The translations under genes were made by a program, and so were the position numbers. The notes beneath the pieces were generated by a model. It saw only the letters and a list, made by a program, of their open reading frames with translations. It had not been told where the DNA came from and made no database searches. Positions 17,601 through 37,416 of a DNA stretch of 64,000 bases are shown in pieces. Location of the stretch: positions 1 through 64,000 of the forward strand of contig PHAB01000008.1 of assembly GCA_002840275.1 (NCBI GenBank), given 5' to 3'. The stretch is from Firmicutes bacterium HGW-Firmicutes-14. Lineage in GTDB: Bacteria > Bacillota > Thermincolia > Thermincolales > UBA2595. Each line of letters opens with the position of its first letter. The first letter of the stretch is position 1.

Positions 17601-17886
17601 ATAGAAATTTCTAACGAAAATCTTTTGAATAACTGTGAAGGGGAAAGTATGCGCCGGAGAAGCCTTAGCGAGCCCGGGACGGTGTAAGCCGGGTGCGGAA
17701 ACGGCACTGAAAATCACCCTGGAGTTGTGCAGCAGAAAACCAGTAAGCTGCACCGGTGGCAGCCGTTATCTTTGGCCTATTAAGAGCCGGCAGCAGAGTG
17801 TTATTATTCTGATTGGTGCTGTTTTGCCGGAATTTAGGGTGGTACCGCGGGAAAAGACTCCCGTCCCTATGGGATGGGAGTCTTTA
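17601..17886 (+). promoter_or_regulatory. T-box riboswitch, isoleucine specifier
   Basis: A tRNA-sensing leader of ileS. Stem I elements are present: GGGGAAAGTA near 17640-17649 and the distal loop GGTGTAAGCC near 17681. The specifier loop GAAAATCACC carries ATC (Ile) at 17713-17715 followed by A. The T-box proper, AGGGTGGTACCGCGG, is at 17836-17850. The terminator is AGACTCCCGTCCC with GGGATGGGAGTCT (17855-17885) and a short T run. Uncharged tRNA-Ile would stabilise the antiterminator and turn ileS on. Confidence 0.95.
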
Positions 17887-28129: not shown

Positions 28130-28173
28130 GCACCGTAAGTAAATGGAGACATGCTTAAGCTATGATAATTTGA

Positions 28174-28291
28174 GGGAGGGGCAGATATATTCCTCCAGGG
28201 CGGCTACGATTCAGCCAGTTACCCAATCGCGCTATCGCGCGCTTGGACTGGCGGACATCAGACCGCCTTCCGGAATACATCTGCCCCTCCC
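28174..28291 (+). repeat. Palindromic element A (118 bp) with conserved core
   Basis: The outer arms GGGAGGGGCAGATATATTCC (28174-28193) and GGAATACATCTGCCCCTCCC (28272-28291) pair with one mismatch. Inside are an internal loop (CTACGATTCAG on one side, GGACATCAGAC on the other), a helix GCCAGT with ACTGGC, and a terminal stem CCAATCGCGC with GCGCGCTTGG. A 63-nt core is shared with element B at 37297-37416 on the opposite strand, 54 of 63 positions by my count. It lies between convergent genes (ytvI-like and a glycosyltransferase). Confidence 0.85.
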
Positions 28292-28378
28292 TAAGTTTCA
28301 TTTTTAAAGAAGAGTGCCCCAATTACTTACAGGACCTCAGTTAATCTGCAGTCCCTTAATTAACTTGCAGCCCCTGGT

Positions 28379-29533
28379 TTATTTCAGGTCTGGAAGCAGT
28401 TCTCTGTACAAATCGCACAGCTCCCGGCCTGCCCTTTCCCAGTTAAAATATTCCTCACACCGTTTTCTGCCGGCTTTACCCATCGATTCAGCCAAATCCC
28501 GGTCTTCCAGAAGCCTTAAAACGGCATCTCGGAAAGCCCCGGGGTTTTTTTCATCCCCGACCAGGAATCCATCGATCCCGTCAGTTATGATTTCGGGAAT
28601 TCCTCCCCTGGCTGATGCAACTACCGGTATACCTGAGGCCATTGCTTCTACATTGACCAGGCCAAAGGGTTCATCCCACTGGGAAGGGCAGACAAAGACG
28701 TCAGCCATGGCGAAACAGACGGGGAGCAGGTCTTGTTTCACATAATTGGTGAAGCGGATGTTTCCCGCGATCGGCCCGGCCAATTGATGAAGGCTGTTGA
28801 TGTAGGCTGAGGGCACAGTATTGCCGAACCAGCTGCTGCCCACGACCACAAGACAGCATTCAGGGTATTGCCTGACTACCTGTTCCATAGCCCGAATCAG
28901 GACATCCGCACCTTTTTTGGGGATTACCCTTCCGGTAAACAGGACTACTTTATGTTTTTCGGGAATCCTCAGTTTTTTCTTCAGGGCAGATACCCGGCTG
29001 ATTACGGCAGGTTCCCACCGTGGTTTGAACCTGGCCGGCTCAGTTCCCAGGTGAATATACCTTATCCTGCCGGATACCCGGGGAAACATTTCTCCCAGTT
29101 TCCGGCGCATGAAGTCACTGTATACCAGTATGAGGTCACACATCTCAAAGATTTTGCAGGTATAGTTATGCCTGATCAATTTCTCATCAAAGTGTATCAT
29201 TGAATGAAGGCTGCAGATATATTTACTCCGCGGCATCATTGCCTTGGTCCTGGGGATGAAAAGCGGGCGGTTTTCGACCTGGATGATGGGGCAGTTTTTC
29301 TCAATTATCCGGGTCCTGACGGTTTTGAAATAATCATTGCCCTTGAGACATCGGTGATAATGCAGGCTGCCAATTATTTCTTCCGGCGCCAGGGCACGGT
29401 GGGCAGGCCCATAAACATGGATGGCAAACTCCCTTGATGTGACCTGGGCCATTTTATCTATGACGGTTTCAACAGAACCGCCGATTATCGGGGGAACGGG
29501 GAGAAGTCCGGGTGATACAACAGCTATGGACAA
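28379..29533 (-). CDS. Family 4 glycosyltransferase (GT-B fold)
   Basis: A cytoplasmic or membrane-associated retaining glycosyltransferase of 384 aa. The N-terminal acceptor domain starts MSIAVVSPGLLPVPPIIGGS with the glycine-rich GGSVETV loop. The C-terminal nucleotide-sugar domain has VLFTGRVIPKKGADVLI (about 195-211), VCPSQWDEPFGLVNVEAMASG (about 290-310; EPFGLVNVEAM is the E-x7-E motif) and GIPVVASARGG. The start is TTG 29533, 8 nt after AAGGAGG. It opens a group of three minus-strand surface-glycan genes with small gaps (18 and 3 nt), so they form an operon. Confidence 0.88.
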   Translation of the reverse strand: MSIAVVSPGLLPVPPIIGGSVETVIDKMAQVTSREFAIHVYGPAHRALAPEEIIGSLHYHRCLKGNDYFKTVRTRIIEKNCPIIQVENRPLFIPRTKAMMPRSKYICSLHSMIHFDEKLIRHNYTCKIFEMCDLILVYSDFMRRKLGEMFPRVSGRIRYIHLGTEPARFKPRWEPAVISRVSALKKKLRIPEKHKVVLFTGRVIPKKGADVLIRAMEQVVRQYPECCLVVVGSSWFGNTVPSAYINSLHQLAGPIAGNIRFTNYVKQDLLPVCFAMADVFVCPSQWDEPFGLVNVEAMASGIPVVASARGGIPEIITDGIDGFLVGDEKNPGAFRDAVLRLLEDRDLAESMGKAGRKRCEEYFNWERAGRELCDLYRELLPDLK

Positions 29534-29551
29534 TGGGCATTCCTCCTTTTT

Positions 29552-30646
29552 TTATTTCTTCACCAGTTCTTTTAATGACCTGTACCTTGATTCCCAGGTG
29601 TTTACCCGTGCCACACTCAGCTGAAACCGGCATCTCCGGTCTTTTTCATCTTCCGGTTCAGTGAGAAGTAACCGGACTTTTTCAAGGAACAGGTTTTTGT
29701 CAGAAGCTCTCTCAACCAACCTGCCGAACTTGATAACCTCCGGAATAGGGGTTGAGACTATAGGTTTTCCGGAAGCCAGGTATTCATAAAGCTTTATGGG
29801 ACTAGAGTTTAGAGCTGTCTCCGAATTTTTAAAGGGAATTATGCAGACATCAAATTCCTGCAGGTAATTTGGTAAGGTGTTATAAGGTCTGCGGCCCAGC
29901 CAGTGGATATTTGACAAATTAGGAATGTTTACCGAACGGTGTTTTGGCCCGACAAGTACTATTGACCAGCCGGGTTCCTCCCGGGCCAGGTGGCTGACCA
30001 GGTCCAGGTCAACCCATTCGTAGATTGCCCCAATAAAACCGATGCGGGGCCTGCCAAGCCGCTTAATGTCATCCGGGGCGGTTAGGCCTTGTTCAAAGGA
30101 ACGGCTGAAATGCTCGAAATCACATGCGTTCGGAATCAGGAAACAGTTTGAGTTTTCCCTGCTTTTCGATGCATAGAGAGGTTCAGAAACAACAAGTACA
30201 ATATCAGCCTTCCGGGCTAATGTACGGTCAGCTGTGGTTGTATATTCAGGAGTCCAGCTGAAGGAACTATAGTCATCCAGACAGTCATATACCACCAGTC
30301 TTTCACCAAGGTTCCCACACATGTAGCCGGCTTCGGGCAGGTTAATCCATAACAGCGGGTTCTCAAGGCCAAACCGCTTGATAAATTCCCGAATAAGCCC
30401 GGTGAAATGCTCCCTGACCCTGGAAACTGTCATGGTTCTCAATCTGGGTGGCGCAAACACTATAAGGTTGGGGTTAACAGTCTTAACGAATTTTTCAAAA
30501 ATAATATTTGACGGAGGTATTTCACTGACCACGGACGGAGGATTAATGTAACCCACCCTGAAGTTTTCCGAAAACAGTGTCGTTAGCTGCTGGGGCCTCT
30601 GAAACAGGAAGTCCCACCGGGTGGAAGAAAAGCAAATGATATTCAT
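29552..30646 (-). CDS. TuaH-like glycosyltransferase
   Basis: A GT-B glycosyltransferase of 364 aa. The N terminus has the text WDFLFQRPQQLTTLF, typical of TuaH-type proteins (teichuronic-acid locus of Bacillus). The C-terminal part has IGFIGAIYEWVDLDLV (about 197-212), HWLGRRPYNTLPNYLQEFDV and IPFKNSETALNSSPIKLYEY then LASGKPIVST. Its N-terminal text and its LYEYLASGK block closely match the plus-strand gene at 31647-33236, so the two are probably paralogues. GGAGGTG precedes the ATG. Confidence 0.85.
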   Translation of the reverse strand: MNIICFSSTRWDFLFQRPQQLTTLFSENFRVGYINPPSVVSEIPPSNIIFEKFVKTVNPNLIVFAPPRLRTMTVSRVREHFTGLIREFIKRFGLENPLLWINLPEAGYMCGNLGERLVVYDCLDDYSSFSWTPEYTTTADRTLARKADIVLVVSEPLYASKSRENSNCFLIPNACDFEHFSRSFEQGLTAPDDIKRLGRPRIGFIGAIYEWVDLDLVSHLAREEPGWSIVLVGPKHRSVNIPNLSNIHWLGRRPYNTLPNYLQEFDVCIIPFKNSETALNSSPIKLYEYLASGKPIVSTPIPEVIKFGRLVERASDKNLFLEKVRLLLTEPEDEKDRRCRFQLSVARVNTWESRYRSLKELVKK

Positions 30647-30649
30647 GCA

Positions 30650-31423
30650 TTAAGTACACCTCCACGAAAGTTTGTGTCTCAGGCGGCTCCCTTTTTTATG
30701 TTTAGCGCCTATACTGCATACCAGGTAACCTTCAAAGAGGTTTTTTTCCTCAAAAGACAGGCTGTCATAGAACTCCCTGACCAAATCAGCCAGAAGGCCT
30801 GTTTTGTCTATCACGGCAAGGTGTACAATACTCTCCGGAAACCCGGTGGAATATTCCCCTAACATTGACAACCCTGCTTCTGTAAACTGCTTATTTAGTG
30901 AAACAACAGGATATTCTTCTCCCCACTGCCAGGAATTATTTTTTTCTGAGAACCATTTATAAAGCCTGTAAAAAAGGCACCTGGCATTGGGAGTAAAAAC
31001 AATTACCCTGCCCGATGGTTTACATACCCTTTTCATTTCAGCCAGTATTTTTACCTGTTCATTAAATGGGAAGTGTTCCAGTACTCCTGAATTGAATACC
31101 AGGTCATAACTGCCATTATTAGAACTGAGCGCCCGGACATCTTCACAAAAATAAGATGCCGGGACTTTATTACGTTTAAACATCTCTTTCATTTTTTCCA
31201 CCGCCACGGGACTGTAATCTACCAGGGCAGGCGAAGCTCCGCGTATAGCAAGTTGAAGGGAGGTGGTCCCGGTACCTGCTCCTGCTTCAAGAACCCTCAG
31301 CCCCCGGACTGATCCTCCCATGATTTCGATTATAGAATCGACCACACATTGAAAATAAATATTCTCATCGAAGGATTCTTCCCGGCTCCAAATCTTATCC
31401 CAGTGTTCCCCGTCAGGTTCCAT
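30650..31423 (-). CDS. Class I SAM-dependent methyltransferase
   Basis: A 257-aa methyltransferase. Motif I is VLEAGAGTGTTSLQLA (about 44-59), motif II includes PALVDYSP, and FNSGVLEHFPF (about 109-119) is the motif IV region typical of Methyltransf_11/25 enzymes. The acceptor is unknown; the context implies a sugar or glycan precursor. Only 3 nt separate its stop from the TuaH-like start, so the two are translated together. It is divergent from the fusion glycosyltransferase gene at 31647. Confidence 0.85.
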   Translation of the reverse strand: MEPDGEHWDKIWSREESFDENIYFQCVVDSIIEIMGGSVRGLRVLEAGAGTGTTSLQLAIRGASPALVDYSPVAVEKMKEMFKRNKVPASYFCEDVRALSSNNGSYDLVFNSGVLEHFPFNEQVKILAEMKRVCKPSGRVIVFTPNARCLFYRLYKWFSEKNNSWQWGEEYPVVSLNKQFTEAGLSMLGEYSTGFPESIVHLAVIDKTGLLADLVREFYDSLSFEEKNLFEGYLVCSIGAKHKKGSRLRHKLSWRCT

Positions 31424-31646
31424 GGTTATTGCTCCTTTGTTTTTTCGATTTTATTGAAAAAGGGCTAAGGTCATTATTTTGACTCTTCATAACATAATAT
31501 GGCCCATGGCACTTTAAGGTTCGCGCATCGTTTACATAATATGACTAAGGTATTCTTTTTAAGAATGACATTTAGTAGACATATTTAATATATTGTTAAT
31601 GTGATGCTTTTTCTGAATCCTCAGCTGGAAGCAAAGGAGTGCGGGC

Positions 31647-33236
31647 ATGGCGATAATAATTTACCCTCCGACTATTGACTGGGATTACATGAGACAGAGG
31701 CCGCAAAACCTTATGCTGGAGTTTGCAAAAAACGGTCACCGGGTTTTTTACTGTAACATGACCCAATCCTCCGAGTCATCTATTGAACAAATAAGTGATA
31801 ATTTATACCTGGTTCATAATGTGGACATTTTTTTAAAGGAACATATCCCTATAATAAAGTCATCCGGGATACCTGTTATAGTCTGGTGCTCATGGGCAAT
31901 GATTTCAAACACTTTACCGGAATTTATGCCTGATGTCACGGTATATGACTGTCTTGATGAATTCACTGAATGGCTCCCTCATGAACCGGGTATGGTTCGT
32001 TCAGCCGGCATAGTTTTTTGCAGCTCTGATTACCTGTTGGGACGCTTGACTTCCACCTATCCGGAGAAAAAGGTATCTCTTTTAAACAATGCCTGTGAAT
32101 TTGCAAGGTTTGGCAGTTTTAACGGGGCAGTGAGACCGGATGACCTGCCGGAATATGCTGGAGCAACCATCGGTTATATCGGTGCATGGGCCTGGTGGAT
32201 TGACGATGAGCTGGTGAAAAAAATCTGTGCAAGGTTCCCGCAAAACCGTTTGGTTGTTATAGGTCCTAACCTTGGGGCGCGGTTACCCCGCGAGCATCCA
32301 AATTTTCAATACCTGGGAATGAAAAAATACGAGCAATTGGTAAATTATCTCAAATTTATTGATGTCTGTATAATCCCCTTTAAGATTAACAAGACAACGA
32401 TTGCCACCAATCCGATTAAAGCCTATGAATACCTGGCGGCCGGAAAAAACATTGTCTCCACGGCAATTCCGGAACTGGTGAAAATGCAGCCTCTGGTCAG
32501 GATTGGTTATGACCATGAACAATTTATTTTGCAGGTTGAGGAAAGCCTGAAAAACGTTGATGAGGGCTTCAGGGAAAAAAGGGATTTTTCCAGGGCCAAT
32601 TCGTGGGAAGCCAGGTACCGGTCGGTGGAAAAGGTCTTGGAAACAGAAATTCCGGGGTTCAAAGAAGATTCAGCCCATTCCTCTCTGCAAAAAATTATAC
32701 CGTCTCATGACAGTAACTTTTTGTGTATCTATCCGATTGCCGATGCTGTTATAAAAAGCAGTCATCCGGAAGCAAATTTTGACTTGAGCCCGGTTTTCAT
32801 AGGCAGGTCAGGGAGAGGCATAAACCGTTACCTGCTGAAGTTTGACGTTACCGACATAGCCAGGGAAATAGAAAGAGCTGTTTTTGCCATTTTTGTGGAA
32901 AGGTGCAGTGAAGTTCAAAGCGTAAAATGTTTAGAAGTCCTAAAAATTCTTGGTAAATGGGACGAAGGCCTGGTTTCCTGGAAAACGAGGCCTCCGGCGG
33001 AGAAAATTCCCATCCGGGAGTTTTATTGTCAGGGAGGGGCAGGATGGGTGGAATGGGATGCAACCTGCCTGTTAAAAGAATGGATCGAATGCCCTGAAAC
33101 CAACTTTGGGATGATGATAAAGGCCGTAATAAAGGAGAAGCCTTTCATTGTCAAAGGATTAAACCGGCATTACGGTAAGTATTACAGCCCGAAAATGAAG
33201 ATATTCTTAAAAAATATGACTTTTACCAAAAATTAA
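31647..33236 (+). CDS. Glycosyltransferase fused to a DNRLRE-like C-terminal domain
   Basis: A 529-aa two-part protein. Residues about 1-335 form a GT-B glycosyltransferase (WDYMRQRPQNLMLEFAK at 11-27, IGYIGAWAWW, CIIPFKINKTTIATNPIKAY then EYLAAGKNIVST) similar to the TuaH-like gene on the other strand. Residues about 350-529 look like a DNRLRE/CBM96-type beta-sandwich: ADAVIKSSHPEANFDLSPVF, NRYLLKFDVTDI, VLKILGKWDEGLVSWKTRPP and WVEWDATCLLKEWI. DNRLRE domains are normally found on secreted wall proteins, so a fusion to a cytoplasmic enzyme is unexpected; no signal peptide is seen. The ribosome site is AAAGGAG. Confidence 0.78.
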   Translation: MAIIIYPPTIDWDYMRQRPQNLMLEFAKNGHRVFYCNMTQSSESSIEQISDNLYLVHNVDIFLKEHIPIIKSSGIPVIVWCSWAMISNTLPEFMPDVTVYDCLDEFTEWLPHEPGMVRSAGIVFCSSDYLLGRLTSTYPEKKVSLLNNACEFARFGSFNGAVRPDDLPEYAGATIGYIGAWAWWIDDELVKKICARFPQNRLVVIGPNLGARLPREHPNFQYLGMKKYEQLVNYLKFIDVCIIPFKINKTTIATNPIKAYEYLAAGKNIVSTAIPELVKMQPLVRIGYDHEQFILQVEESLKNVDEGFREKRDFSRANSWEARYRSVEKVLETEIPGFKEDSAHSSLQKIIPSHDSNFLCIYPIADAVIKSSHPEANFDLSPVFIGRSGRGINRYLLKFDVTDIAREIERAVFAIFVERCSEVQSVKCLEVLKILGKWDEGLVSWKTRPPAEKIPIREFYCQGGAGWVEWDATCLLKEWIECPETNFGMMIKAVIKEKPFIVKGLNRHYGKYYSPKMKIFLKNMTFTKN

Positions 33237-33252
33237 AGGAGTGCATGAAAAA

Positions 33253-33984
33253 TTGGAATCCATATTTGAAAGAGATGCATCAGTTACCGGTTTTTTTCTA
33301 AAAGACGGTTATAAATCCAGGGAAAAACCGGATTATTTTATAGATGAGACCGGCAGTATCGATTGGCAGCCCAGGGTATATACCCTTGCCGGCTACCTGG
33401 GGGAACGGTGTGATTGCAGTTATATAATAGACATAGGCTGCGGAAGGGCCAGAAAGCTTATCAATATGTATCCTGATTATCAGGTTGTCGGAATTGATTT
33501 CGGTGAAAATATAAGGTACTGTGAGGAAAGCTATCCCCATGGTTCATGGATTGAATTCGATTTTGAACAACCGCAACTGCTGGAGGTTGCTGATGATATA
33601 GTTAAGAATGCAATTATTGTCTGTGCAGACGTTGTAGAACACCTGGTAAACCCAAGTCACCTGTTTTGCAACCTCCGGAAGATGATGGACCTGGCCCCTG
33701 TCTGCCTCCTTTCAACTCCTGAACGGGATCTTGTCCGGGGTCCCGGCAACCTGGGACCTCCCGGTAATACCTCACACGTAAGAGAATGGAATATCGAAGA
33801 ATTCACAAAACTGCTGCGGTTCTATGATTTTAATCTTGGGTATATAGGGCTGACTGCCAGCAACAATCAGGGCTGGCAGATGGAAACGATTCTGGCTGTA
33901 ATCGGAAGTAATAAAAACGATAATATGAATTCGTGCCGGTGCGACCTGGATGAATTGAAACCGGAAATACTGAAAAGGATTTAG
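33253..33984 (+). CDS. Class I SAM-dependent methyltransferase
   Basis: A methyltransferase of about 243 aa. The SAM site is YIIDIGCGRARKLINM followed by VVGIDFGENI (about 57-85), and CADVVEHLVNP (about 122-132) is the motif IV region. The TTG at 33253, 11 nt after AAAGGAG, is the likeliest start; the upstream GTG at 33241 overlaps that ribosome site. It follows the fusion glycosyltransferase gene by 16 nt and is probably in its operon. Acceptor unknown, presumably a sugar. Confidence 0.8.
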   Translation: MESIFERDASVTGFFLKDGYKSREKPDYFIDETGSIDWQPRVYTLAGYLGERCDCSYIIDIGCGRARKLINMYPDYQVVGIDFGENIRYCEESYPHGSWIEFDFEQPQLLEVADDIVKNAIIVCADVVEHLVNPSHLFCNLRKMMDLAPVCLLSTPERDLVRGPGNLGPPGNTSHVREWNIEEFTKLLRFYDFNLGYIGLTASNNQGWQMETILAVIGSNKNDNMNSCRCDLDELKPEILKRI

Positions 33985-33988
33985 AAGA

Positions 33989-34702
33989 CTAATAAACCGG
34001 ATTTTTATCCCACTCCCATGTATTAACCCCGTCAGCATCAGCCTGGATGCAGGTATCGGCCCCGCTGCCGAAAGAGATTCCCACATGCCCGGTATGTTTT
34101 GCATATGATGCCAGTATTGTCCCGGGGACTCCTGCGCTGACCAGGGCCAGCCGGTATTTGTACTTATCCATTTCACTCATTGCTTTCTCAAAACTTTTCC
34201 AGTTGGGGCAGTCTACGGTCCCGGCAATGCCGGTCCACCCGTACCTTCTTTCCAGGACTTCCTTCAGTTTCCCGGCCTTGGCGCCTATCAGAAGTACTTT
34301 TGTATCTTTAAAGTATTCATAGAATCTGGGGTCTTTACTTATATAGAAATTGTCAAAGGCATAAAAAAACCGGGAAGGTTTAATATCATAATATTGTATC
34401 ACCATATCAGAAAGCGGCTTTAGGTTCCAATGCTCTGTCTGGCAGAAGACTCCCAGGAAATCTGCCTGGTGAAGCGCCCAGACCAGCTGCTCCTGCAGCT
34501 TTTTGTCAGGCAGTTTTGAATCAGGCAGGTGGTCATTTGCCCAGCGGCAGAGTTTATTGACGAATTTCATTGACAGAATCTCCTCATGGGCCGCCACTAT
34601 TATCTGGGCATCCCCAAGACGTACCGAAGAATGGGGCTGGCCTGATTCAACCACTTCTTTCCAGGCTTCCAGGACATCCCCGGTTTTGATATTTTCAGTC
34701 AT
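33989..34702 (-). CDS. GT-D-fold (DUF1792-like) glycosyltransferase
   Basis: A 237-aa protein resembling the GT-D class first described in streptococcal adhesin glycosylation (DUF1792). The N-terminal SSVRLGDAQI (about 25-34) matches the family SxxRxGDxE site, with Gln replacing the usual acidic residue. The C-terminal VSAGVPGTILASYAKHTG then HVGISFGSG fits the rest of the fold. The Asp/Glu-to-Gln change at the motif end may affect metal binding. It is convergent with the methyltransferase gene, 4 nt apart. GAGGTG precedes the ATG. Confidence 0.65.
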   Translation of the reverse strand: MTENIKTGDVLEAWKEVVESGQPHSSVRLGDAQIIVAAHEEILSMKFVNKLCRWANDHLPDSKLPDKKLQEQLVWALHQADFLGVFCQTEHWNLKPLSDMVIQYYDIKPSRFFYAFDNFYISKDPRFYEYFKDTKVLLIGAKAGKLKEVLERRYGWTGIAGTVDCPNWKSFEKAMSEMDKYKYRLALVSAGVPGTILASYAKHTGHVGISFGSGADTCIQADADGVNTWEWDKNPVY

Positions 34703-34716
34703 ATTATCACCTCATT

Positions 34717-34745
34717 AAGGAATTACCGGCAGCCGGTAATTCCTT
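34717..34745. repeat. 29-bp palindrome in the divergent promoter region
   Basis: AAGGAATTACCGGC (34717-34730) and GCCGGTAATTCCTT (34732-34745) flank a single A. It stands 15 nt upstream of the GT-D start codon, so it may be an operator or a hairpin in the 5' leader. Confidence 0.65.
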
Positions 34746-34849
34746 TATATGTATTATTTTATGTGAAAAAGCCCGTTAAAGTGCAATAACAGGTTTTGAT
34801 GATGTTAAGGAGGGGAGAGCCGCTTAAAGTCGAATAATAAAAGGGAACG

Positions 34850-34888
34850 CCGATAATGACGGGATTAACCCGATAATGACAGGATTAA
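34850..34888 (+). repeat. Two 19-bp direct repeats upstream of the PIG-V-like gene
   Basis: CCGATAATGACGGGATTAA (34850-34868) and CCGATAATGACAGGATTAA (34870-34888) are separated by one base, a 20-bp period with one mismatch. They precede the ribosome site of the membrane mannosyltransferase gene. They may be a regulatory site or a recent duplication. Confidence 0.7.
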
Positions 34889-34906
34889 TGGAAGGGAGGG
34901 GATGAC

Positions 34907-36052
34907 ATGAACCGCAGGCTGTTATTTTGGGCGGTATTAACCAGGCTGCTGGTTTTCATTGTAATATATCTGACCTTTTATAGTTATTTCCCCGGCAGGC
35001 CGCCTGCCCCCGCGGATTATGAATTCACTCAGGGGCCGCTGGACTGGAGTCCCTTGAACCCTCTTCTTCTTTATGATGGGGGACAATATACCAGAATTGC
35101 TGAACACGGGTATGTGGAAGAACTGACAGTCTGGTTTCCCTTTTATCCTCTGCTCATCAGGCTTCTGGGGCTGTTGACAGGAAACTTCGGGCTGGCGGCA
35201 GCCGTTATTGCCAATATTTCTTTTTTTGCTGCCCTTGAGCTGCTGTACAGGCTTGCCCGGCTGGATTATGGGGAACGCGTTTCCTTTATAGCGGCCGTTA
35301 CCATAATGGTTATCCCGGCGGGTGTGTTTTTTAATGTCGCTTATTCAGAGAGCCTATTTTTGGCTTTAATCCTCGGGTCCTTTTATGCGGCCCGGACCGA
35401 GAGATGGTGGACGGCCGGTATCCTCGGAGGTTTTGCTGCCCTGACCAGGAACCTGGGCATCCTGGTTTTCCCTGCCCTGCTGATGGAGTACTATTGGTTG
35501 AATAAAAAATCACGCGGTATTTTCGCCCTGAAATATGGATTCAGGAAAAAACTTCCGGCCATGGCCGGAATATATATGGTCCCTTTTTTGTTTTGCCTTT
35601 ATCCCGGTTACCTGGCCTCAAGGTTTGGTGACCCCCTGGCCTTCATCCATGGGCAGTCGGGCCACTTCAGAGCCTTCCGGTTCCCCGGGTGGGGGATTGG
35701 TGCGGACCTGGTCAGCATGGTCCAAAACCCTCTGGATTCATTTAATTTTATTATTTTGCTGAACCTCTTGGCTTTAATCCTGGGTGTGTTGGCTCTGATT
35801 TGCATAAAGCGCCCTTCCTACCGCCTTTATTCCCTGACCTATCTGTTTTTTATCACGGCAATGCCGCTGGTAAAGGGGAATATGCCCCACTCCACCGGAC
35901 TTTTCAGATTTATCCTGGGGCTGTTTCCGCTATACCTGTTCCTGGGCCGGACGATTTCCTCCCGCAAAGGAAGATATATTTCTGCGGGGATCAGCCTGTT
36001 TATACTCCTCATGATGGCCAGTCTCCTGGCAAGAAAGATATATATTGCTTAA
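34907..36052 (+). CDS. PIG-V-like integral membrane glycosyltransferase
   Basis: A polytopic membrane protein of 381 aa (GT-C fold) with about nine TM helices. The first extracytoplasmic loop carries YDGGQYTRIAEHGY (about 56-69), the acidic catalytic site of the PIG-V / mannosyltransferase group, and WFPFYPLLIRLLG follows. SESLFLALILGSFYAARTER (about 150-169) and a C-terminal GNMPHSTGLFRFILGLFPL region are also typical. These enzymes use polyprenyl-phosphate sugars outside the membrane. It closes the glycan region and is likely to modify a lipid-linked or exported glycan. The ribosome site is GGAGGGG. Confidence 0.8.
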   Translation: MNRRLLFWAVLTRLLVFIVIYLTFYSYFPGRPPAPADYEFTQGPLDWSPLNPLLLYDGGQYTRIAEHGYVEELTVWFPFYPLLIRLLGLLTGNFGLAAAVIANISFFAALELLYRLARLDYGERVSFIAAVTIMVIPAGVFFNVAYSESLFLALILGSFYAARTERWWTAGILGGFAALTRNLGILVFPALLMEYYWLNKKSRGIFALKYGFRKKLPAMAGIYMVPFLFCLYPGYLASRFGDPLAFIHGQSGHFRAFRFPGWGIGADLVSMVQNPLDSFNFIILLNLLALILGVLALICIKRPSYRLYSLTYLFFITAMPLVKGNMPHSTGLFRFILGLFPLYLFLGRTISSRKGRYISAGISLFILLMMASLLARKIYIA

Positions 36053-36190
36053 AGGGATCTGGAAATGCCTGATTTTTGTGGAGAAAAGACCATTAATTAC
36101 TAGTCAGATAGTTCTAAAAGTTAGAAGGTTACGGGGATGTCATGTCGAATGGTAATGTAAGTTAGTAATATACTTTTCGGAGGGGGAAAA

Positions 36191-36865
36191 ATGGCAAAAC
36201 TTAAGATTCTGGTCGCCGACAGTCATGAAGTGGTTCGCTTGGGTATCATCTTCATCCTCAAGCGTTCCGAGAATTTCGAAGTTGTGGATGAAGCAACTAC
36301 CTGTTCCGAAGTCCTGAAAAAAACCAATATCTATAATCCTGACGTAATAATCATGGATTCCCGGCTCAATGACGGGAGTGCCATTACCGCGTGCCGGACC
36401 CTTAAGGAGAAACACCCTGAAACCCGGATTATCGTGTTGATCTCTCCTGCAGATGAGGACAGCATATTCGAAGCTATTTCCGCGGGTGCGGAAGGCCTGC
36501 TTCCCAAGCAGATTAAGAGTGAAGAACTTACCAGGGCGATTAGGATGGTTTGTGAAGGTAAATCCATGCTGGACCCGTCCATTACCTCTAAGGTTATTGA
36601 CAGGGTTAAAAACAACTTTTCAAACCCTGAACGAAAGGATATCCTTCTTAACCCTCAGGAAAGAAGAATCCTGGCCCTTATTGCAGAGGGGAAAACAAAT
36701 AAGGAAATTGCCCAGGTCCTGATGCTCAGCAACAATACCATTAAAAACTATGTCAGCGGCATTTTAAGCAAGCTCAACTTTAACAACAGGGCTGAGGCTG
36801 CCGCTTATGCCGTCAGGAATAACCTGATGAAACAGCCGCGGGCGGTTAATGACGGGCGGAACTAG
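36191..36865 (+). CDS. Orphan NarL/LuxR-type response regulator
   Basis: A 224-aa DNA-binding regulator. The receiver domain (1-120) has Asp56 in VIIMDSRLND and Lys in LLPKQ. The N-terminal acidic pair, however, reads VADSHE, so one of the two Mg-binding acids is a Ser. The LuxR-type HTH (about 150-210) has LNPQERRILALIAEGKTNKE and LSNNTIKNYVSGILSKL. No histidine kinase is adjacent. It stands upstream of the cytochrome cluster, separated by the palindromic elements, and could regulate it. The ribosome site is GGAGGGGG. Confidence 0.88.
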   Translation: MAKLKILVADSHEVVRLGIIFILKRSENFEVVDEATTCSEVLKKTNIYNPDVIIMDSRLNDGSAITACRTLKEKHPETRIIVLISPADEDSIFEAISAGAEGLLPKQIKSEELTRAIRMVCEGKSMLDPSITSKVIDRVKNNFSNPERKDILLNPQERRILALIAEGKTNKEIAQVLMLSNNTIKNYVSGILSKLNFNNRAEAAAYAVRNNLMKQPRAVNDGRN

Positions 36866-36880
36866 AAAGTATATATAAAG

Positions 36881-37170
36881 ATGGAGATGTATTCCCACGG
36901 CGGGCAACGTCTCATTTGGTTATCCAAACAAAAACTGATGTTATCAGTCACCGAAAACCAGATTACGTGTCTGTTGCAGTATGCCTTGCCGGATGAAAAA
37001 CTATCGTCCCGGCGCTGCGACATCCCTGTCGCGCGCCGGGGCTTCGGACATCCTTGTCCTCCGCTGCTCTGTTTTTCATCCGTCTGCGGCAACTGCAAAG
37101 ACGACACTTCATCAGTGGTTTTCTTGTAACTGATAACATCAGTTTTAAGTTTTTGGATAATCATCTCCAT
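36881..37170. repeat. Element C: 290-bp multi-hairpin fold-back
   Basis: Nested inverted repeats span the whole stretch. ATGGAGATG (36881-36889) pairs with CATCTCCAT (37162-37170). AACTGATGTTATCAGT (36933-36948) pairs perfectly with 37129-37144. GGATGAAAAAC (36991-37001) pairs with 37071-37081. The centre holds CCCGGCGC with GCGCCGGG (37008-37015 and 37033-37040) enclosing GCGACATCCCTGTCGC, then a second small hairpin GGACATCCTTGTCC (37046-37059). Open frames on both strands here follow the palindrome and are not believed. Confidence 0.85.
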
Positions 37171-37296
37171 TGCTATTTTACATACATTTAACGTCCTTTA
37201 TATTCAGCTACCTTGGCTGAGCAGAGGGGATAGTTCTTCATTTAAAGGGAGTGCCCGGTTCATTTATAAGCTTTTTATTTTTTGTTATATAAGCCA

Positions 37297-37416
37297 AGTA
37301 GAGGCGGGTATATTCCTTCATTACGAGTCTGACGTCCGCTTGTCCAATCGCGCGAACGCGCGATTGGGTAACAAGCTGAGTCGTAGCCGTCATGAAGGGA
37401 TATACCCGCCTCTACT
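37297..37416 (-). repeat. Palindromic element B (120 bp), core shared with element A
   Basis: The 25-bp outer arms are at 37297-37321 and 37392-37416 with one mismatch; the left arm begins AGTAGAGGCGGGTATATTCC. Read on the minus strand, the interior carries the same core as element A: GGCTACGACTCAGC, then GTTACCCAATCGCGC, GCGCGATTGGAC and GCGGACGTCAGAC. Where element A has GCCAGT with ACTGGC, B has GCTTGT with ACAAGC, a compensated change. Confidence 0.85.

Follow-up and report, generated by a model that had tools for sequence, protein, structure and literature searches.

Two large palindromes in one stretch of 64,000 nucleotides (the window) raise the question of whether they belong to one family, and of what has kept their arms complementary while the arm sequences changed. 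An earlier note on the window had described them as two elements of about 120 bp, A and B, with a common covarying core, and had suggested a folded RNA or single-stranded DNA under selection, for example a structured RNA family or a REP/IS200-like hairpin substrate. Both hairpins were found, A at 28174-28291 and B at 37297-37416. When the two cores were compared side by side, they differed at 9 positions in 62-63 nt, as had been counted before, and both the compensated swap of GCCAGT/ACTGGC in A for GCTTGT/ACAAGC in B and the replacement of a T-C mismatch in A by a T-A pair in B were present. The length of about 120 bp fits the hairpins, but each hairpin is only the centre of a larger unit. 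The features of the window are as follows.

About 28131-28334 (204 bp), folded strand minus: whole unit of element A (end-like repeat, spacer, hairpin, spacer, end-like repeat)
28131-28148, no strand assigned: degenerate terminal repeat of A, CACCGTAAGTAAATGGAG
28317-28334, no strand assigned: degenerate terminal repeat of A, CCCCAATTACTTACAGGA, with a weak match to a terminator on the minus strand
28174-28291, minus: hairpin of A, about 118 nt
28202-28215, minus: conserved core side 1 of A, plus-strand letters GGCTACGATTCAGC
28223-28246, minus: apical cassette of A in its short version, CCAATCGCGC..TTGG, an exchangeable module
28251-28263, minus: conserved core side 2 of A, plus-strand letters GCGGACATCAGAC
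36884-37170, no strand assigned: putative, diverged relic of a third copy upstream of B (uncertain)
37297-37416, plus (the folded strand): hairpin of B, terminal repeats heavily degraded
37327-37339, plus: conserved core side of B, GTCTGACGTCCGC
37375-37388, plus: conserved core side of B, GCTGAGTCGTAGCC

The unit of element A was delimited by matching both flanks to the family end-repeat consensus TCCCATAAGTAAATGGGGC, and its core side 1 corresponds to columns 31-42 of alignment A2, which are mostly invariant across 42 representatives. The putative relic shows GGCGGGCAACGTCTCA.., resembling L026, followed by GATAATCATCTCCATT (direct reading, with a weak pattern match), and it contains the internal inverted repeats AACTGATGTTATCAGT / AACTGATAACATCAGTT and gives rise to a doubtful ORF at 36862-37170; the covariance model found no match there at E<=1.

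Folding strand of the hairpins

The predicted fold energies are -78.6 kcal/mol for A and -76.0 kcal/mol for B, with z-scores against dinucleotide shuffles of -10.7 and -11.4, and 0 of 200 shuffles fold equally well. The earlier note had read A on the plus strand and B on the minus strand, whereas in both cases the complement folds better (114-nt core of A, minus -72.8 vs plus -67.2 kcal/mol; B, plus -76.3 vs minus -71.1 kcal/mol), and the same complement was the more stable strand in all 22 copies compared. On it, the arms carry 223 G-T against 98 A-C oppositions in an alignment that scored the two alike. Copies with more G-T than A-C outnumber the opposite kind by 74 to 18 (p=3e-9), and in the 42 diverged representatives, with one falsely paired column pair set aside, the figures are 74 vs 25 (p=9e-7), both p-values being inflated by kinship among the copies. 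Outside the hairpin, at distances of more than about 29 bases from the core, G-T and A-C are about equal, and this region serves as an internal control. The fold is conserved on one specific strand, and strand-biased cytosine deamination could mimic part of the G-T excess.

Tolerance of wobble on a single strand also agrees with another reading, in which the copies represent a family of structured RNAs that are transcribed, either as a small RNA or as an element at the 3' end of mRNAs, although wobble pairs appear rarer here than would be expected of RNA stems.

Copy number and distribution

With A as the query, 33 blastn matches were obtained in the genome that carries the window, and a covariance model derived from 22 of the copies located at least 48 distinct sites there after strand duplicates were merged. 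Elements A and B are both real, but merely two of these. The copies are dispersed, mostly single, among host genes. The search of relatives proposed in the earlier note also yielded copies in all 10 sampled genomes of the order, so that neither did the two elements stand alone nor did the arms of further copies diverge uncompensated. Among 399 Bacillota genomes, these 10 (nine family genomes and one from a sister family) were the positive ones, the nine family genomes having 13 to 86 matches each with both strands counted and most having dozens, while no match occurred in the 389 Bacillota genomes outside the order. A core-pattern scan of 85,000 species genomes matched only Thermincola MAGs and Bacillota/Firmicutes MAGs, several of which are assemblies already included among the family genomes, and the viral contig, phage and plasmid collections gave zero matches. 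Since every sampled positive belongs to one lineage, the repeat family is confined to that lineage, and since it is present in all genera of the lineage, it is old.

The statement that no named family has this core holds for Rfam 15, in which nothing reached the gathering score and a permissive search returned chance-level matches far below the gathering scores. Nothing relevant to Thermincola palindromes appeared in the literature titles and abstracts listed. The sole Rfam match in the window is a T-box leader at 17626-17871 on the plus strand (RF00230, 122 bits).

Anatomy of the unit and its subfamilies

Most copies with two readable ends form a unit of about 202-235 bp, typically about 205 bp, with the hairpin (about 120-170 nt across the family) at its centre. 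The ends of the unit are inverted repeats, the left with the consensus TCCCATAAGTAAATGGGGCAGC (also given as GTGTCCCATAAGTAAATGGGGC) and the right its mirror; they are degenerate in many copies and hairpin-prone, and in recent G003 copies each forms a small hairpin with a T-rich tail. The outer stem has about 28 pairs and is often interrupted by a GGA/GGA internal loop; a 3-bp block TCC/GGA occurs too as GGA/GGA and GGA/TCC. Inward of it follow the core with fixed unpaired nucleotides, a 6-bp helix, a 3-nt bulge that reads NTA on the folded strand, and a variable apex. Some copies have a short apical hairpin and others a long one, and the long form (about 167 nt) has three. In the predicted fold, the three apical hairpins of the long form together with the stem look like a four-way junction. 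A GC-rich second subfamily has other arms and other flanks (TTGTTGACAAAT) and the same core layout, with its core helix swapped to TGTC/GACG in place of TGAY/RTCG.

The P4/P5 module of the long form, CATGGCAGCTCTTAGCGCTTTAGCGCTTAGAG.TGGCGGTACCCTTGGGGTA, is nearly constant in several genera, compensated in G002 and G008, and better conserved between genera than the surrounding arms (L305, L307, L295, L071, L067, L225, L350-L359). Such constancy, like the conserved bulges, would suit the transcribed RNA family, with the four-way-junction long form as the functional RNA and the short forms as reduced versions. Conservation is also higher in the central hairpin than in the terminal repeats; a plain MITE would not usually show this, and it suggests that the hairpin itself has a role.

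Several copies depart from the usual arrangement. L155, L174 and L264 have end repeats without the central hairpin, like solo remnants, and L297 (G002:C75:189500-191500) consists of three tandem copies, each with a terminator-like spacer GCCGCCTGCTTGCGGCTTTTTT. A second high-copy repeat, ATTGTACCGATTTTCCGCACTGCCGCCTATGAGTCTAAGCTGC.., with about 20 or more copies in G007, was seen in genus g5 at L215 (query 1441-1619), and the element at L272 is flanked by inverted sequence related to it.

Covariation and its origin

In a MAFFT alignment made without structure information, 38 of 49 pairs vary on both sides, against 19 ± 2.2 in shuffles (0 of 500 as high), and 91% of the alignment cells pair, a value that falls to 31-43% when the partners are slid by 1-3 columns. 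In the 42 representatives, which share less than 85% identity and whose alignment was fitted to the model and so leans toward the model structure, nearly every stem pair occurs as two, three or four Watson-Crick types and intermediates are few, and mean column identity is 0.86 in the unpaired core, 0.74 in paired columns and 0.72 in the outer arms. The conserved bulges persist even where subfamilies differ in their arms and apices. The proposal of selection on a folded single strand is supported by three kinds of observation: wobble is tolerated on one strand, bulges are conserved, and compensation extends over subfamilies and genera. The working form may be RNA or single-stranded DNA.

The covariation itself is overwhelming, but part of it reflects wholesale exchange of cassettes rather than base-by-base compensation. 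Orthologous sites were compared in three species of one genus, the flanks being mostly 82-97% identical, and in some pairs of sites the outer arms are the same but the apical helix and loop have been exchanged together as one block, with pairing kept (L212 vs L270, L221 vs L268, L276 vs L277). The replacing blocks are of a type common in other copies, and the replacement is cassette exchange between paralogues. Because apical cassettes are swapped with pairing intact, conversion provides part of the covariation, and because of this exchange, to which template switching may add, covariation counts overstate the number of independent compensations.

This origin bears on the reading of the repeats as plain MITEs of a DDE transposon, whose fold is functionless and whose covariation is a mutational by-product of palindromes through template switching and conversion. 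Full Watson-Crick swaps with few intermediates, the apex exchanged as one cassette at orthologous sites, and the variants of the TCC/GGA block are all consistent with it, and template switching is reported to create, repair and maintain compensated hairpins (PMC8794818). However, template switching would erase bulges, yet the unpaired core columns exceed the paired ones in conservation, and the excess of G-T over A-C is limited to the hairpin, even if deamination could contribute to it. We consider a functionless fold improbable, and regard the conserved bulges and the strand preference as better evidence of selection than the covariation counts.

Genomic context

Copies are enriched between convergent genes: 21 of 45 copies of the own genome lie in convergent gaps, which make up 53 of its 357 intergenic gaps (p=3e-8), and divergent gaps are depleted, with 4 of the 45, genes in these counts being mechanically called long ORFs. 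Element A has an AI-2E-family transporter gene on one side and, convergent with it, a glycosyltransferase gene on the other. Element B, which has a response-regulator gene and a multihaem-cytochrome gene as neighbours, was scored as divergent because a doubtful small ORF intervenes. The folded strand shows no bias relative to local GC skew (23 vs 22), used as a proxy for the replication strand in draft contigs, and falls 22 to 23 relative to the main gene direction. In tandem gaps, 14 copies are sense and 6 antisense in the own genome, compared with 17 to 26 in the family-wide set.

The position at gene 3' ends is compatible with the transcribed RNA family, but its orientation to the neighbouring genes is inconsistent, as the tandem-gap counts show, a promoter search at element A gave no convincing candidate, and tens of exchangeable copies per genome fit mobile repeats better. 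We therefore judge the RNA reading unlikely, though it is the rival to be taken most seriously.

The same enrichment and depletion would be expected of bidirectional terminators or chromosome-architecture sites kept by the host (REP/BIME-like), with cruciforms or mRNA hairpins stopping transcription or binding a DNA protein between convergent genes. The ends indeed look like terminators, with a hairpin and then a T-rich tract (GGCTGTCCCATAAGTAACTGGGGCAGCC-TTTCTTTTT is an example), and many sites are common to two or three species. A terminator, however, needs no conserved bulges, strand preference or four-way apex, and several sites are degraded or lost in G008, so that such a host function is rather doubtful as the main explanation. 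A scan of element A for a G+C-rich stem directly before a T-run gave one weak match, which is at chance level.

Mobility and candidate movers

G005 has three copies of a 160-178 bp unit that are 99-100% identical and whose left flanks are unrelated, and in G003 many near-identical left ends occur at separate places; copying is therefore recent in some lineages. Most sites in genus g5 are common to two or three species and half-deleted relics occur in G008, so mobility there is old, and the copies have persisted long at orthologous sites. At L264 in G008 a single terminal hairpin stands where the other species have end-hairpin-end, which can equally be read as an insertion or as the deletion product of recombination between the ends, and at L263 the element is absent and no footprint could be read. 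The comparison with G008 gave no cleanly empty site that would reveal a target duplication, and 22 two-ended copies read by eye had no obvious flanking direct repeat. A search for the end pattern in the nine family genomes revealed no recognisable transposase-bearing unit in the end-centred stretches that were read, where some of the left and right ends had been assigned to each other. Hidden transposases between close pairs of copies were rejected, since the translations look like ordinary host genes (LysM/M23-type peptidase, PAS histidine kinase and others, with Rho and transketolase alongside).

As a further explanation, the repeats could be REPIN or IS200/IS605-type elements mobilised by a Y1 (RAYT) transposase, or they could be ends of an IS1182-family element, since the bulged hairpin recalls Y1 substrates and an IS1182-like transposase gene stands beside two G005 copies. 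The Y1 link suggested in the earlier note has to be given up: Y1 (PF01797) genes are present in 6 of the 9 family genomes and none adjoins a copy, and no Y1 match was found in the copy-rich genomes G001, G003 and G008. Nor was there a lagging-strand bias (the 23 vs 22 above), which would have indicated transposition of single-stranded DNA. The IS1182-like fragments directly adjoin two identical copies (L125, L126), in one of which a deletion fuses the hairpin with the transposase gene. L126 had suggested IS1182 as the carrier, which was rejected, as the IS1182-like gene of G001 (L146) has no hairpin and, at the cut-off used, most repeat-bearing genomes, the own genome among them, lack the gene. 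An IS1182-family element, IS1272, inserts into hairpins (PMC4923244), which explains the two adjacencies. Taken as a whole, a Y1 or IS1182 origin is very improbable.

Comparison with known systems

REP and REPIN sequences are dispersed extragenic inverted repeats that form hairpins in ssDNA or mRNA, with distinct subfamilies in one genome (PMC3116915, Bertels and Rainey 2011). The present repeats are likewise extragenic, pair into hairpins and form distinct subfamilies within one genome, but they are larger, with a multi-branched apex, terminal inverted repeats of their own and no RAYT linkage. With MITEs they have in common a short non-coding unit, inverted ends (the terminal inverted repeats are present) and near-identical recent copies, and they differ in the better conserved centre and in that no autonomous partner or target duplication was found. 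IS1182/IS1272, of which IS1272 inserts into hairpins, is linked to the repeats by the G005 adjacency, and its transposase is missing from most genomes that have the repeats.

The attC sites are imperfect palindromes of 60-140 nt in which structure counts over sequence, with extrahelical bases, a variable apex and a preferred folded strand. The present repeats resemble them in the imperfect palindrome, in structure kept over sequence, in the extrahelical bases, in the variable apex and in the preferred strand, but the copies are dispersed between host genes and not in cassette arrays, and no R-box motif was seen by eye. ERIC is an imperfect palindrome of about 127 bp, intergenic and in many copies, whose mover is unknown and whose size variants arise through internal insertion. 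As an intergenic, many-copy imperfect palindrome with size variants, the present family is ERIC-like by description; it comes from an unrelated lineage, its conserved bulges are strand-specific and its apical cassettes can be exchanged. For REP/RAYT, IS200/IS605, attC and any Rfam family, a defining feature of each was looked for in the repeats and was not found. We describe a new, unnamed, ERIC/REPIN-like and order-specific palindromic repeat family with a strand-specific structured core.

Our preferred reading, held with slightly better than even confidence, is that A and B belong to a palindromic element of the ERIC/REPIN/MITE kind, which is lineage-specific, non-autonomous and present in many copies, and whose folded strand is under selection. 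The copies would have been spread by a trans factor recognising the folded strand or the terminal repeats; insertions away from gene 3' ends may have been removed by selection or avoided through targeting; and the complementarity of the arms would be upheld jointly by selection on the fold, by gene conversion and by repair of the palindrome through template switching. A more speculative possibility, to which we give roughly one chance in five, is an order-specific structured nucleic acid with the four-way-junction core, multiplied via its folded single strand (RNA or DNA) by a novel recombinase or reverse-transcription route, with apical modules exchanged between copies.

Large palindromes are unstable in bacteria, and here dozens of them stay folded in a strand-specific manner across a whole order while arms and apices change freely. 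The family offers a natural data set in which the effects of selection on the fold can be separated from those of template-switch repair and gene conversion, a distinction that matters for the reading of covariation in all RNA-family discovery. In the Thermincola-type bacteria, which are metal- and CO-metabolising anaerobes, the repeats point to a factor that handles folded single strands.
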